Assembly: GCA_019044685.2 (NCBI GenBank)
Contig: JAGTXX020000007.1
Coordinates: 558,001-622,000 of the forward strand
Length of the DNA stretch: 64,000 nt
Origin: Nannochloris sp. 'desiccata'
Lineage: Eukaryota > Chlorophyta > Trebouxiophyceae > Chlorellales > Chlorellaceae
Direction of reading: 5' to 3'
Part shown: positions 357 to 39,796 of the stretch, one piece after another
Layout of the letters: every line of letters starts with the position of its first letter
Numbering within the stretch: position 1 is the first letter of the stretch
Translations under genes and position numbers: made by a program
The notes under the pieces: model-generated
What the model was told of the DNA's origin: nothing
Database searches by the model: none
Seen by the model: the letters and a program-made list of their open reading frames with translations, nothing else

Positions 357-1327
357 CTACGTTAACAGATATAAATCTTGTAGGGCCCAAGTCGTCAAGA
401 GTAAGGAAACAGCTGCAATGCCTGCAGCAATAAGTCCATATCCAATAAACTTTGTTGCAACGTTGCCAACAGAGGCAACTGCCTTTTTCAGAGAACGGCC
501 TCGTTTCGCGAGGCTTCGAGCAGCAGTCGCAGCAGCAGTCCTGACAACCTTGACAGCAGACAAAAGAGCGGAAGGAAACCTTGCGAGGGGTGTTTCAACA
601 CCAGGGGCCACGTCCGCAACAGAGGAAGACGTGAAGGGGTTGTATGATGTAACTGCAGCAACAGAAGCGACGACATGTCCAACTGCACGCAGGGCCTTCC
701 AAAATACTCCCTCTTTGACCGGCTCACTGGGACGAGGAGCGACAGTAATAGTAGGATTGGTAGTAGTGGTGGTAGCATCAACGGTCACCATGATGGCTGA
801 GCCTCCTGAGATAGCCTTTGTCTCTTCACGAGGCGCCGCAGCAGCTGCAGGCGACTTCAAGGGAGAATCGGCGTCCTCAGAAGTAAGAGCAGCATATGGG
901 TTGCTGCAATCGAAGCCTGCGACCGGGCTTGTGGGTACCAATTCGGCGCCTTTGGCCTTGGGACTATTTTCGCGGCTGGTCTTGTGCGGCGAATCTGCCG
1001 CGGCGACAGGGCGAGTTGGAGACTCTGCGGGGGTGCTCAACATGACATTGTCCTGCTCATCAGGCTCCTGCATGGCAAACTTATTGCCCCGTGCCTTGTT
1101 TCGTTCAATGTTGAAGCGCTTTCCCCCTTTAGTTTTGTTGTTGTTATTGCTGTTCTCTGCCGAGATGAGTTCGAAAGGAAGCAATTAACAAATGAGATCG
1201 CAATCTGCCAGATGGCAACGATCTGAAGGAAAACAAAGTAGGTAGTAGGCAGTAGAGATGAGTAAAATATACCTTTGTTACTGCCAGTGGCGTGCCCGGC
1301 CTTGGCCTTAGAGCGTTTGCTAGGCAT
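357..1327 (-). CDS. Tail-anchored membrane protein with KEN box, function unknown
   Basis: Two exons, 1327-1273 and 1156-357, give 284 residues; the 116-bp intron has a GTATAT donor and GGCAG acceptor. The protein starts very basic (MPSKRSKAKAGH). Splicing creates a KEN motif at residues 18-20, with the E19 codon split by the intron. KEN is a known recognition motif for the anaphase-promoting complex. A low-complexity region follows with several SP/TP sites (TPAESP, ENSPK, PTSP, SPLKSP) that could be CDK targets. The end is one hydrophobic segment (about 256-276) with only a short tail after it, the layout of a tail-anchored protein. A TATA box (1508-1502) and the palindromic module shared with the H3/H4 promoter lie upstream. 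I do not recognise the family. A nuclear-envelope or ER protein degraded once per cell cycle is an inference. Confidence 0.72.
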
Positions 1328-1501: not shown

Positions 1502-1508
1502 TTTTATA
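1502..1508 (-). promoter_or_regulatory. TATA box of the KEN-box gene
   Basis: TATAAAA on the minus strand, about 175 bp before the ATG at 1327 and 67 bp from the near edge of the palindromic arms. The H3 gene has the same arrangement (59 bp). Confidence 0.55.
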
Positions 1509-1550
1509 GGCAAAATTTGGACTCAATGAGAGTCACTCATTTCACACACA

Positions 1551-1679
1551 GCAGGAAGGGCGAGCTGGGGAGAATGGCACACCTATCCGGGTTCCAGTCA
1601 TCCCTGGCCTCTCAGGGCATCACTTTGCAGGAAATCACCCCAGAGGCCAGGGATGACTGGAACCCGGATAGGTGTGCCA
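1551..1679 (-). promoter_or_regulatory. 129-bp palindromic promoter module, copy 1
   Basis: The module has a 24-nt flank (1551-1574), a left arm (1575-1612), a 29-nt loop (1613-1641) and a right arm (1642-1679). The two 38-nt arms are perfect reverse complements. Each arm starts with TGGCACACCTATCCGGGTT on its own strand and ends with CCTGGCCTCT towards the loop. A second copy of exactly the same length and part order lies between H3 and H4 (39164-39292), and the 24-nt flanks agree at 23 positions. In both places the flank faces a TATA box. I take it as a promoter element; a short inverted-repeat transposon is the alternative. Confidence 0.75.
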
Positions 1680-25338: not shown

Positions 25339-28300
25339 ATGAGTGGACTTAAAGCAAATAAAGTAAGATTTACGCCTAGATGTTTGCGGGGGTTGTCCTA
25401 TTTGAAGCCATACTTCATCATGCCCTCGTCTTGCGTCCAAAGCCTTCTTACTCACTAACCTTCCTTCCTTTCCCCCGCAGTCTGGCGTATGGACAGCCAA
25501 TGAAGATAAACTATTAGCAGAGTGGCAGGTAAGGCATCCTAGATATTTGTAGACGTTCCGCAGTGAACTTTCAAATTCAAAATTCTAATAATGATCTTGC
25601 CCCTATTTACCCTAGATTTCGCCCTCATTTCCCACTATTTCAAACTATCTCTTTGCAGAGTCAATTTGGTAACAAGTGGGCTGAGGTCGCTCGTCAAATC
25701 CCAGGCAAAACTGGCCAGCAGTGTGCCCAGCGATGGCGCCACAGAGTAAACCCAGACATTCGCCGCGAAAAATGGGGCGCAGAGGAAGACGCTAACCTCG
25801 CTGCTCTTGTTCAGAGACATGGAAACTCGTGGGCAATCATTGCCCGCTCCATGCCTGGACGTACTGACCAGCAATGTATGGGTCGGTGGAAGCGCCACCT
25901 TGATCCTTCAATCCGTAGAGAAGGCTGGACCCCTCAAGAAGATGCCCTGCTTTTTCAGCTTGCAGAAGAGTATCAAAACGCATGGAGCGCAGTTAGCCGT
26001 GGTTTAACTGGCCGTACACCACAGCAATGCCGTACCCGGTGGCACTACATCTCCGGCAATCCTAATGCCGCTGAAGCCTCTCGAGCTGCTATCCAAGCAA
26101 TGCGTGATGCTCAAGCAGCTGCTGAAGCTGCCAAGGCAGGATTGAAGAAACGCAGAGGAAGACCTTCAAAGAATGCGTTAGCTGCTGCAGCTGCAGGGAT
26201 GCTTACAGTCTTGGCCCCTCTTCCTAAGGGCACTGTCGTGTACCACCCTCGCCATGATCCTACTTGTACTGATGCCGGCACCGCCGCCACTGCCCCACCG
26301 GCCACTGTAGTAGGTGGCAAACGCTCTGCTCCAGCTCGCCGCCCTGGTCGCCCTCCTCGTAAGAAAGTCCCTGCGGTTGAAGACCATGGCGGAGACTATT
26401 TTGAACCTGCCGCTACGACTGTTGCAGGAGGAAATGCTCGATACAGCAATCAGTTTGACCCTGGTACTTACCAAAATAATATTATTAATAATAATAATAC
26501 TGATGATAATCTCCGTGGTAGTATTGATGGTGAAGAAGCTATGTTGCTTGATGGATTCTGGAATGCAGTTACTGCTGGCGTCCCGCCGCCGGCGTCCTCT
26601 TCTGGGCCTTTAGATCTCGCAGAAGGAAGGACTTCTGGAGCTGCCAATGGTGGTGCTGGGGCAGTTGTTACTGGGCGTAGAAATCGTCCCACTCGCGCTC
26701 GTATTTCTTCACGAAGACGTACTTCATTCTCAATGAGCAGTGAAGACGAGGGCAGCGAAGAGGAAGAGGAGGATGACACAGAGGCAGGAGCTTATGATGA
26801 CGAAGATGACGAGGATTTTGTTGTTAAAGAAAGGCAGAGGTATCGGAGACAACCACAGCAACAGCGTCAGCAAATTTGGAGGCCTCAAAGACATCACGAA
26901 GGTGATGATCAATCTGAACCTGCTGCTGCTGCTGCTGCTGCTGCTGCAGGTGCTGGTGCCAATGTCGGTGTCGGTGTTGAAGCTGATAGTGATTTTGAAG
27001 GCGAGGATGAAACTGACAATGATGAAGAGTATATTCCTAATGGTGCTACAGGAAAACGTGTTTCTCTTCACGCAGGTCGCATTGCTGATGGTGGAGCTAA
27101 CGACAACAACACCAACGACGATGAGGGCAAGGTTCAACACCACCGAGAGGAAGGGTACATGTTTGGAAGTATTAGAACACTTCCTGTGAACCAACAACAT
27201 GTCATTCCTATGTCTCCTAGTAGCTTTGACCCTTCTATAAAGCAATTGCATCAACAGCATCAACAGCAAGAAGCAAACACTGCTGCTGCTGTAGCTGCCG
27301 GCAATGCTGTTCCTACTGATGCCGCTACAACTGTGGCTGGTCAGCAACAACAGCAGCAGCAGCAGCATTATTTTGAAGAGCCAGCTCTTTTACTTGGTTC
27401 CTCTAGAGCAGAACGTCGTGTCAGTTTAGGTGATGTCCCTCTCTCGCCTGCTGTCTTTTCTCCAGCACTGACGCCCCCATGGTCTAGACGGAAAAGACAC
27501 AACCACGCTCGTCTTGCTGCATTCGGACCTTCTGTACCCACCACAGGCGGTCCTGGCATTGGTAAGACTCTGAATAGTAATATGAATTCTCAGCAACATG
27601 GGACTCCTCGTCGTCAAATTCATCATGCTGGCACCGCCGCTGCAGCAGCGCTCGAAGCCGGTGCCCCCTTGGCCTCTCCTGGCATCTTAGACTTACTTCA
27701 CTCTCCTGAAAGTTTCCACCATCAAAGAAGTCGTCGTTCTTCCGATGGTAAAGCCGATGTAAATGACCACCAGCTTGGTGGGCACCATGACCGCCACAAC
27801 GACGATGGCACTGGTGTGGGCAACCACCACCATCATCAAGATGATAACCACAATGAAGAAGACTTTTTCCCAGGTGCCTTCCCTGAGTCACCAGCCTTAC
27901 CTCAATTCGCGGGTTTAATCACCCCTGAATGGGCTAGAGCAGCAGCTGCTGCCTCTGCTGCTGCTGAAGACGCTGAAGTTCGTCGAATGTCTATCGCTTC
28001 TGTCGCACGAAGACTTGATGTCGATAGCGTTGCTGTTAAAGTTGCTGTTAATGGCGCTACTCAACGTATTGGTACTGGTGATTCTCCGCCGCCTCAGGCT
28101 GGTTCCTTATCTGTTTCTCTCTCGTTATCTGCTGGAGGTATCCCTCCTGCCGTGGGAACAGGAGCTGGAATGGTACCTTCTAGTAGGCAAGGAGGTACAG
28201 CTATTACTCCGGCAGCTGCTGCTGCCATCGATACTGCACCTGGAATCGAGCACACCTTCTTCTCTCCTATAGAAACAGCAGCAGCAGCAGCAAGAGCACA

Positions 28301-28904
28301 TGCACTTCCTCCATATTCCGGTACCACAACGGTCCCTTCATCAGCATCTCATGGACGGACTTTCTTAGCTGCTGCGTTACAACGTACTGTAGGATCTGGT
28401 CTTATCCCTGCTTCTGGTACGTTCTTCCCTACTTGTACCGCTGCTACTGCGGGCACAGGTGGGGCTGGAGGTCACATCGCCGGAGCTACTACTGGTACGG
28501 GAGACTTAGCTACCCCAATGGCAATTGAAGAGTTATTACTTACTCCTATGGGTCTTCATATTGCTGGTTCAAATGTTCCACAAGTAGCACTTACCGCAGC
28601 ACCACCAACTGGCGGGGCTGTGCCTGTCGTTGTACCTATGATGGAAACAAGGGCACTTACTCCAGGCGCTTCTGGAGATGGTGGTCTCTCACCCGATGTT
28701 GCTGCAGCTCTTCAACAAGCTGGACTTGTTGCTTTGCCTGCTGGTCAGTATAATAGAGTTGTATTACAAAATACTACATTAACAGCAAAGAAAGATGCCC
28801 CTCCTGCTGCTCTGCCTGCTGTAGTCGCTGCCACGGGTGTTACTGGCCCTCTGAGCAGTAGCGATGTTCGAATGAAGCTGCAAGCTCTCTTAGAGCAAGT
28901 ATAA
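25339..28904 (+). CDS. Three-repeat MYB (3R-MYB) transcription factor
   Basis: Exons 25339-25362, 25481-25528 and 25659-28904 give 1,105 residues; the first two exons are only 24 and 48 nt. Three MYB repeats in a row cover about 9-165: SGVWTANEDKLLAEW with RQIPGKTGQQCAQRWRHRV; EKWGAEEDANLAALVQRHG with RSMPGRTDQQCMGRWKRHL; and EGWTPQEDALLFQLAEEY with GLTGRTPQQCRTRWHYI. The regularly spaced tryptophans are present. Two AT-hook-like basic patches follow (RRGRPSK near 189, RRPGRPPRKK near 251). The remaining about 850 residues are low-complexity, with acidic, poly-Ala, poly-Gln and His-rich stretches. In plants 3R-MYBs control G2/M genes; a cell-cycle role here is likely by family but not shown. 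Confidence 0.92.
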
Positions 28905-38146: not shown

Positions 38147-38464
38147 CTGCCGCCACCGCAGTAAAATAATCTACTGTTTGTTTATTAAAAGAGTTTGAAG
38201 GATTGATTTTTTCTCCCTGCCTATTGCAATTACCTGTTTATACATCTGTCTAATTGAAGTGTAGTTTATATTCCATTTATATTTAAAAATTAAGGAATAG
38301 AAAACTAGCAAAAAAATATTTGAAAAATTTCAACCGTCAAGATTGTTTAAAATTATTAAGAATTGATTCTGTGCTTATAGGATTTCCAAGAAAGGTGGTG
38401 TTTAATAACACCAATGGGTTGGTTTTTTGTTTTTGTTGCTTAGAAAGCAGCAGCAGCAAGGCGC
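38147..38464. other. Tail-to-tail spacer, PHD-B3 gene and histone H3
   Basis: Contains the 3' end of the H3 transcript with its stem-loop (38397-38412). No other gene is seen. Confidence 0.45.
38397..38412 (-). terminator. Histone H3 3' stem-loop
   Basis: On the minus strand GGTGTTATTAAACACC, a 6-bp stem with a 4-nt loop, 52 bases after the H3 stop. The same 16-mer follows H4. It fits the size and position of the stem-loop that ends replication-dependent histone mRNAs. Confidence 0.85.
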
Positions 38465-39083
<619 letters not shown>

Positions 39084-39121: not shown

Positions 39122-39129
39122 AATTTATA
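39122..39129 (-). promoter_or_regulatory. TATA box of histone H3
   Basis: TATAAATT on the minus strand, 51 bases before the ATG and 59 bases from the palindromic module arm. Confidence 0.65.
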
Positions 39130-39163
39130 GCCAGCGGAGGGCTGCTACGCGTTCTGAAACGCA

Positions 39164-39292
39164 GCAGGAACGGCGAGCTGGGGAGAATGGCACACCTATC
39201 CGGGTTAGGCCCAATCCTGGCCTCTGAGGGGTGCTCCCAAAAAGTGATGCCCTGAGAGGCCAGGGATGGCCAGAACCCGGATAGGTGTGCCA
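39164..39292. promoter_or_regulatory. 129-bp palindromic promoter module, copy 2 (H3/H4)
   Basis: The flank is 39164-39187, left arm 39188-39225, loop 39226-39254 and right arm 39255-39292: the same part lengths as the copy at 1551-1679. The outer 19 nt of each arm (TGGCACACCTATCCGGGTT) and the inner CCTGGCCTCT are identical in all four arms; the middle 9 nt differ between arms here. The loop matches the other copy only when read on the opposite strand (14 identical bases). It sits between the H3 TATA (minus) and the H4 TATA (39310-39317), so it can serve both genes. Confidence 0.85.
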
Positions 39293-39309: not shown

Positions 39310-39317
39310 TATATTTA
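39310..39317 (+). promoter_or_regulatory. TATA-like box of histone H4
   Basis: TATATTTA, 18 bases beyond the palindromic module and 73 bases before the H4 ATG. Confidence 0.55.
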
Positions 39318-39383: not shown

Positions 39384-39701
<318 letters not shown>

Positions 39702-39780: not shown

Positions 39781-39796
39781 GGTGTTATTAAACACC
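39781..39796 (+). terminator. Histone H4 3' stem-loop
   Basis: GGTGTTATTAAACACC, 79 bases after the H4 stop; identical to the H3 stem-loop on the other strand at 38412-38397. The following bases (ACCTT) also match. Confidence 0.85.

Follow-up and report, generated by a model that had tools for sequence, protein, structure and literature searches.

Histone promoters of Volvox and Chlamydomonas reportedly carry the motifs TGGCCAG-G(G/C)-CGAG, CGTTGACC and CGGTTG (Fabry et al. 1995; Mueller et al. 1990). The genes of these algae also reportedly resemble those described here in forming divergent pairs, H3 with H4 and H2A with H2B, that share a short promoter, in having TATA boxes for most genes and in ending with a 3' palindrome in the mRNA. 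Plants have the histone hexamer ACGTCA which, together with the plant octamer and like the element reported below, is a short promoter signal of H3 and H4 genes. The octamer CGCGGATC is listed for histone genes of wheat, maize and Arabidopsis in PMC1832190. For fungi and animals, Marino-Ramirez et al. 2006 (PMC1794435) describe core-histone cis-sites that all core families of a lineage have in common and that give way to others in other lineages; the timing of core histone genes is alike from yeast to human, while their DNA signals vary by lineage (PMC1794435). Here, we report an element that lies upstream of all four core histone families in a trebouxiophyte alga. We estimate at roughly 0.74 the probability that it is a cis-regulatory element of replication-type core histone genes, with a half-site that would be bound by a sequence-specific transcription factor and activate these genes with DNA replication.

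The window, by which we mean the whole 64-kb stretch of DNA analyzed (C7:558001-622000, 45.7% GC), holds two copies of the element. A reading made earlier from the letters of this stretch (the sequence-only reading) had described them as 129-bp modules built of a 24-nt flank, a 38-nt arm, a 29-nt loop and a second 38-nt arm, and both the coordinates and the lengths proved correct for the two copies (Table 1). It had also placed copy 2 between H3 and H4 and copy 1 before a non-histone gene, with which the gene matches agree. The outer 19-mer of the arm gave four matches in the window with up to 3 mismatches allowed, all four of them exact, and none in 100 shuffles, and the inner CCTGGCCTCT was identical across all four arms; the window search and the anatomy thus bear out the proposed invariance of both stretches. 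Arm against arm, copy 1 has no mismatches and copy 2 has mismatches at 5 of 38 positions. Inverted-repeat arms at the ends are true of these two window copies; the site at an orphan H2A gene on C9 is single. Between the two copies, the window contains a 1,123-aa open frame with three Myb repeats (25533-28904).

Table 1. Positions of the two element copies and of the genes and signals beside them (window coordinates, except for the gene on C3)
Feature	Position	Strand	Details
Copy 1, whole module	1551-1679		24-nt flank, 38-nt arm, 29-nt loop, 38-nt arm
Copy 1, 24-nt flank	1551..1574	.	found in H3/H4 promoters too, on the H3 side
Copy 1, first 38-nt arm	1575..1612	+	core 14-mer 1578-1591
Copy 1, 29-nt loop	1613..1641	.	
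Copy 1, second 38-nt arm	1642..1679	-	core 14-mer 1663-1676; perfect inverted copy of first arm
Copy 2, whole module	39164-39292		lengths same as copy 1
Copy 2, 24-nt flank	39164..39187	.	
Copy 2, arm I, towards H4	39188..39225	+	core 14-mer 39191-39204
Copy 2, 29-nt loop	39226..39254	.	
Copy 2, arm II, towards H3	39255..39292	-	core 14-mer 39276-39289
Copy-1 non-histone gene	357..1327	-	exon 1 1327-1273, exon 2 1156-357; 284 aa
C3 non-histone gene	C3:1136920-1137928		two exons, 242 aa
Histone H3 gene	38468..39071	-	two exons matched: 39071-38997, 38812-38468
Histone H4 gene	39390..39698	+	103 codons, stop codon excluded
TATA-like box (CTATAA), copy-1 gene	1504..1509	-	
TATA-like box, H3	39125..39130	-	
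TATA-like box, H4	39310..39315	+	
3' stem-loop of H3 mRNA	38397..38412	-	GGTGTTATTAAACACC
3' stem-loop of H4 mRNA	39781..39796	+	GGTGTTATTAAACACC

The assembly that we searched comprises 21,550,525 bases in 18 contigs (21.55 Mb). It contains 29 matches to the chlorophyll a/b-binding family, and these, together with algal protein matches, led us to reject a fungal source. With up to 3 mismatches, the 19-mer had 20 matches genome-wide (reversed control, 1), two of which, on C11 and C14 with 3 mismatches each, look like chance; a 150-bp query gave 21 alignments, both strands counted, at 10 places. The common core, CACACCTATCCGGG, was matched exactly 20 times, once with 1 mismatch and 30 times with 2 mismatches. 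The reversed core, used as a control, yielded 42 matches at up to 2 mismatches versus 51 for the core itself, and the 30 two-mismatch matches are therefore background. Scaling a dinucleotide model of the window up to the genome gives about 0.05 exact matches expected by chance. Seventeen of the 20 exact cores lie upstream of core histone genes (8 at the four H3/H4 pairs, 8 at the four H2A/H2B pairs and 1 before the orphan H2A on C9), and the other 3 precede two remotely paralogous non-histone genes (2 in copy 1 of the window and 1 on C3); the 1-mismatch core is the partner of the exact C3 site. The element thus occupies 11 places, 9 of which are histone promoters. The sequence-only reading had named as support for its view a concentration of matches to the repeated arm sequence upstream of core histone and other S-phase genes, and a genome search showed such a concentration at core histone genes (17 of 20 exact cores). 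The exact 19-mer had no matches in viral contigs, and a tRNA scan of the 64-kb window found none.

Inverted repeats in several copies might point to a miniature inverted-repeat transposon, all the more as another, real transposon occupies one of these promoters. However, no direct repeat longer than 2 bp surrounds any of the four palindromic copies tested (TT at C3 and none at the other three), in the genome-wide search every exact or 1-mismatch core was at a histone promoter or at one of the two related genes, the arms are turned inside out in H2A/H2B, and only one arm exists at C9. Scattered copies and target-site duplications, which the earlier reading had named as the marks of a miniature transposon, were both looked for (among the 20 exact cores and at the 4 copies tested, respectively) and neither was found. 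As the copies are gene associated and lack target-site duplications of more than 2 bp at the 4 copies tested, we rejected this explanation, whose chance we consider negligible. The preference for a promoter element over a random insertion stands on the same evidence: core-histone promoters contain 17 of the 20 exact cores, the remaining 3 precede two related genes, and no duplication above 2 bp was seen at the 4 copies tested. The real transposon (L072, C7:459639-461161) is a 1,523-bp insertion with inverted ends CAGTGCTTCGTTTA and an 8-bp target-site duplication, CTCTGAAT, and is hAT-like by these marks. It lies between the start codon of one H3 gene and the TATA box and element of that gene, and the H3 copy behind it may be silenced or may have a long leader.

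Next, we looked at which histone genes carry the element. It was present at 4 of 6 canonical H3 genes, at all 4 H4 genes, at 5 H2A genes and at 4 H2B genes. The four element-bearing H3 genes have A31 and encode one protein form, QSSAV. The canonical H3 genes without the element (n = 2) are C7:512 (A31, QSAAV) and a gene on C4 (T31, QSAAV) that we call H3.3-like, taking its T31 to be as in H3.3. No site above background was found in the stretches fetched around the H3.3-like gene on C4 and a CENP-A-like gene on C14, and two H2B-like genes, C7:434 and C11:1412, are without the element; the labels H3.3-like, CENP-A-like and H2B-like are our reading of the translations and should be taken as provisional. 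Near the sole linker-histone match (C7:533936), no core site within 2 mismatches was among the matches listed. Weak histone-fold matches on C2, C15, C17 (two), C9:1171141 and C6 were left out of the gene classification.

Two divergent H3-like domains, at C1:14102-14410 and C16:6301-6609, have equal scores and 48% identity to H3; they lie near contig starts within open frames of 586 and 203 aa. A loose histone cluster of about 140 kb (C7:458982-597796) contains eight core histone pairs and the unpaired H3 at C7:512, and it also holds the linker-histone match and the copy-1 gene.

The unit of the element is a directional half-site of about 44 to 53 bp. It consists, in order, of TGGCACACCTATCCGGG, a variable stretch, CTGGCCTCTcAGGGC and a looser TCACTTT; half-sites that face H2B have GACCACACC... 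in place of TGGCACACCTATCCGGG, and BLAST extends the similarity between half-sites to 51 to 53 bp. Scored with a 44-nt matrix derived from ten representative half-sites, the 21 sites reached 50.9 to 67.1 bits in-sample, and no other position in the window or in 14 loci exceeded 1.2 bits. Core starts are 85 bp apart in all six convergent pairs of half-sites (H3/H4, copy 1 and C3) and 28 bp apart in all four divergent pairs (H2A/H2B), and the orphan H2A on C9 has one half-site only. All 19 genes (17 histone and 2 other) have a half-site directed at the gene, and all except the orphan H2A also have one directed away from it. When the first box is left aside, H3/H4 and H2A/H2B promoters are 74 to 81% alike in their class I half-sites and 88% alike in their class II half-sites, while classes I and II inside one pair type are 55 to 74% alike. 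These values indicate that the two pair types hold the same two half-site classes in opposite order. Furthermore, because divergent gene pairs have inverted half-sites with one aimed at each gene, the module is palindromic in appearance.

We also evaluated the distance between the nearest core and the TATA-like box, which is about 60 bp for H3, 20 bp for H4, 68 to 70 bp for H2B and 56 bp for the orphan H2A, and 68 bp for the copy-1 gene and 25 bp for the C3 gene among the non-histone genes. For the paired H2A genes, the promoters examined showed no TATA-like box nearby. The sequence-only reading had put the 24-nt flank at 59 to 67 bp from TATA and had based its case for a promoter element on a fixed position. 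That figure belongs to the arm (57 and 65 bp between arm and TATA), the flank being 33 and 41 bp away, and the position is not fixed: the distance from the nearest core varies from 20 to 70 bp, with only 17 bp from arm to TATA on the H4 side of copy 2. Although this argument failed, the conclusion that the module is a promoter element does hold on other grounds.

The same positions bear on the possibility that a hairpin or cruciform acts in folded form, as RNA or as extruded DNA. The arms of copy 1, perfect over 38 nt, would suit such a structure. On the other hand, an element upstream of the TATA-like boxes found should be outside the mRNA, the arms of copy 2 have 5 mismatches, those of H2A/H2B diverge, and the half-site of the orphan H2A is single and unpaired. 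The place upstream of the TATA-like boxes, the single C9 half-site and the mismatched copy 2 arms led us to disfavor folding, which we regard as highly improbable. Sites that lie upstream of TATA, singly or in twos, in two topologies and with two spacings, and that are directional fit a transcription-factor site better than a hairpin, a cruciform or a transposon.

In the mechanism that we propose, a sequence-specific transcription factor would recognize the half-site as double-stranded DNA upstream of TATA and, once bound, would switch histone promoters on with DNA replication; protein binding, activation and S-phase timing are what we infer here. That the replication-type genes have the element and the H3.3-like gene does not makes S-phase activation the natural reading. 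At a divergent gene pair, the two inverted half-sites would serve one gene each, and the arrangement on C9 suggests that a single half-site suffices at the orphan H2A. A small non-histone family, made up of the window gene and its remote C3 paralogue, would have acquired a promoter of the same type. Alternatively, the element could be negative, that is, a repressor site rather than an activator site, shutting histone genes outside S phase in an HIR-like manner; HIR-dependent repression of histone genes in budding yeast is described in PMC3115976. The association with histone genes, the orientation and the conservation suit repression equally, but the closeness to TATA (20 to 70 bp) suits an activator at least equally and is not decisive. 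We consider a repressor site unlikely.

To see how far the element is constrained, we compared promoter copies column by column. The four H3/H4 promoters are near-identical to one another, as are the four H2A/H2B promoters, and the set therefore amounts to only about four independent contexts: H3/H4, H2A/H2B, the orphan H2A and the non-histone family. In the H3/H4 promoters, none of the 105 columns of the body was variable versus 13 of 215 elsewhere (P = 0.006), with 11 of these 13 on the H4 side. In the H2A/H2B promoters, 3 of 96 element columns were variable versus 11 of 239 in the surroundings (P = 0.76). An element that is as variable as its surroundings, as in H2A/H2B, would suit passive paralogy, in which it was copied along with the paired genes, gene conversion kept the copies alike, and it had no function of its own; the same holds for the near-identity of the pair copies over the whole intergenic region and for copy 1, which has the H3-side flank and may derive from an H3/H4 promoter. 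However, the similarity that can be aligned between H3/H4 and H2A/H2B promoters is almost confined to the half-sites, which have opposite arrangements, and the copies on other contigs (C3 and C9) are diverged elsewhere while their core is exact at 2 of 3 sites and has 1 mismatch at the third. Passive copying is thus a very unlikely account, and we retain a bound, activating element as the best explanation.

The histone genes also share a signal at their 3' ends. An exact-pattern search of the window and 14 loci found GGTGTT-(4 or 5 nt)-AACACC at 18 places, behind 17 of 17 element-bearing histone genes and behind the H3 at C7:512. The stem-loop at all 17 genes, together with an SLBP-domain gene described below, favors the proposed regulatory role of the element; the H3 at C7:512, which has the stem-loop yet no element, counts against it. 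No such stem-loop was found for the two non-histone element genes in the pattern search of the window and L079. With the stem-loop only at C7:512 and the element only at the non-histone genes, the two signals are separable. Rfam gave no matches in 12 sources at the gathering threshold; at a lax threshold, RF00032 gave 13 matches genome-wide, all below the gathering score and 8 of them just behind C7 histone genes, in a search that also gave matches in 14 of 14 control genomes. A gene with an SLBP RNA-binding domain was matched on C12 (262898-263187, L086) in two stretches (E values of 5.8e-14 and 2.8e-11), the second with one in-frame stop, as expected across an intron. Volvox and Chlamydomonas are named in PMC6827988 as exceptions among plants, whose histone mRNAs are without a stem-loop, and one is therefore expected in a green alga. 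A sub-threshold Histone3 (RF00032) match at C5:295392-295436 (L087), for which we read 301 surrounding bases, has the hairpin GGCGTTTTTCAACGCC and is either chance or the stem-loop of another mRNA.

We also examined the two non-histone genes. Their proteins match deposited hypothetical proteins of Nannochloris sp. 'desiccata' (Chlorellaceae, Trebouxiophyceae) of equal lengths (284 and 242 aa), one at 99% and the other with a difference at one residue, which points to this alga or a close strain as the source. The same-species entry was the only match of the 284-aa window protein among the best 8,000 candidates scored, and the C3 protein matched one same-species entry and one metagenome protein, P0123, a metagenomic relative with 41% identity (E value = 1e-28). 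Compared directly, the window and C3 proteins gave a BLASTP E value of 5e-7 in a one-sequence database without composition correction; the C3 gene was not listed in the genome search with the window protein. In both genes, an intron of the same phase interrupts the GAG codon of an E-N pair, and the two have a TATA region in common (81% over 42 bp). Moreover, the window, C3 and P0123 proteins have in common the motifs P-x-E-S-P, V-x-V-D-A and G-x-F-x3-LR-x2-G-x-VVA-x-VA. Judged by these sequence features, the window and C3 proteins are remote paralogues. The term tail-anchored, which the earlier reading had used, fits the window protein insofar as this has a long hydrophobic C terminus, but does not extend to the gene family, in which that feature is limited to the window protein. 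A KEN sequence at residue 18 and three S-P-x-K/R sites, which we take to be candidate APC/C and CDK signals, are further features of the window protein; the C3 protein has neither.

The element before the window gene may have a composite origin. Copy 1 has a 24-nt flank like that on the H3 side of the H3/H4 promoters, whereas its body is closer to the H3/H4 body in the inverted orientation (83% over 105 bp) than in the direct one with the flank (78 to 79% over 134 to 136 bp). A gene conversion in which a histone promoter of the same contig was the donor, combined with a flip between the arms, would account for this direct H3-side flank beside a body that fits inverted. The C3 element is more diverged (70 to 77%). 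Going further, and only tentatively, one may picture a nearly closed histone regulon under a dedicated, undescribed algal transcription factor, the sole non-histone members of which would be this small family (the window gene and the C3 gene, with the metagenomic relative P0123). Their S/T-P-rich products, the window one with KEN and a hydrophobic C terminus, would then be produced at S phase along with the histones, and their targets would be new chromatin or the nuclear envelope. We rate this picture as possible and somewhat doubtful.

CCAAT, the MSA core AACGG, the I-box GGATAR and the hexamer are established motif names, and we included them in a test of known motifs against 6 element-bearing and 2 element-less promoters. 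Among the 6 element-bearing promoters, the volvocine motif TGGCCAG was found in 3, GG(G/C)CGAG in 1 and neither CGTTGACC nor CGGTTG in any; unlike this motif set, the core here is CACACCTATCCGGG in inverted pairs. Both the plant octamer CGCGGATC and the hexamer were absent from these 6 promoters, as were the E2F motifs TTTSSCGC and TTSSCGC. We rejected CCAAT (1 of 6), the MSA core (2 of 6) and Site II (2 of 6) as explanations. An I-box-like GGATAR was present in 6 of 6 element-bearing and 0 of 2 element-less promoters, but this sequence belongs to the core. PMC1832190 has entries for the octamer, Site II and E2F motifs.

We found no description of this element in the open-licence literature, and in a search of open-licence papers with pieces of the core, no algal histone promoter was among the matches listed. 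Lineage-specific histone promoter motifs are an established kind, to which this one adds a case for which we found no report. It gives a trebouxiophyte alga a candidate histone signal with a 14-bp core suited to isolating the binding protein, it comes in natural single, convergent and divergent versions with natural controls (the H3 genes without the element), and it nominates an uncharacterized gene family as histone co-regulated, which offers a direct route to the function of that family. To our knowledge, the core-histone cis-elements of fungi and animals have no sequence relation to it. Unlike them, the element has long tripartite half-sites at a constant inverted spacing of 85 or 28 bp, and in this alga it is carried by two non-histone genes as well.
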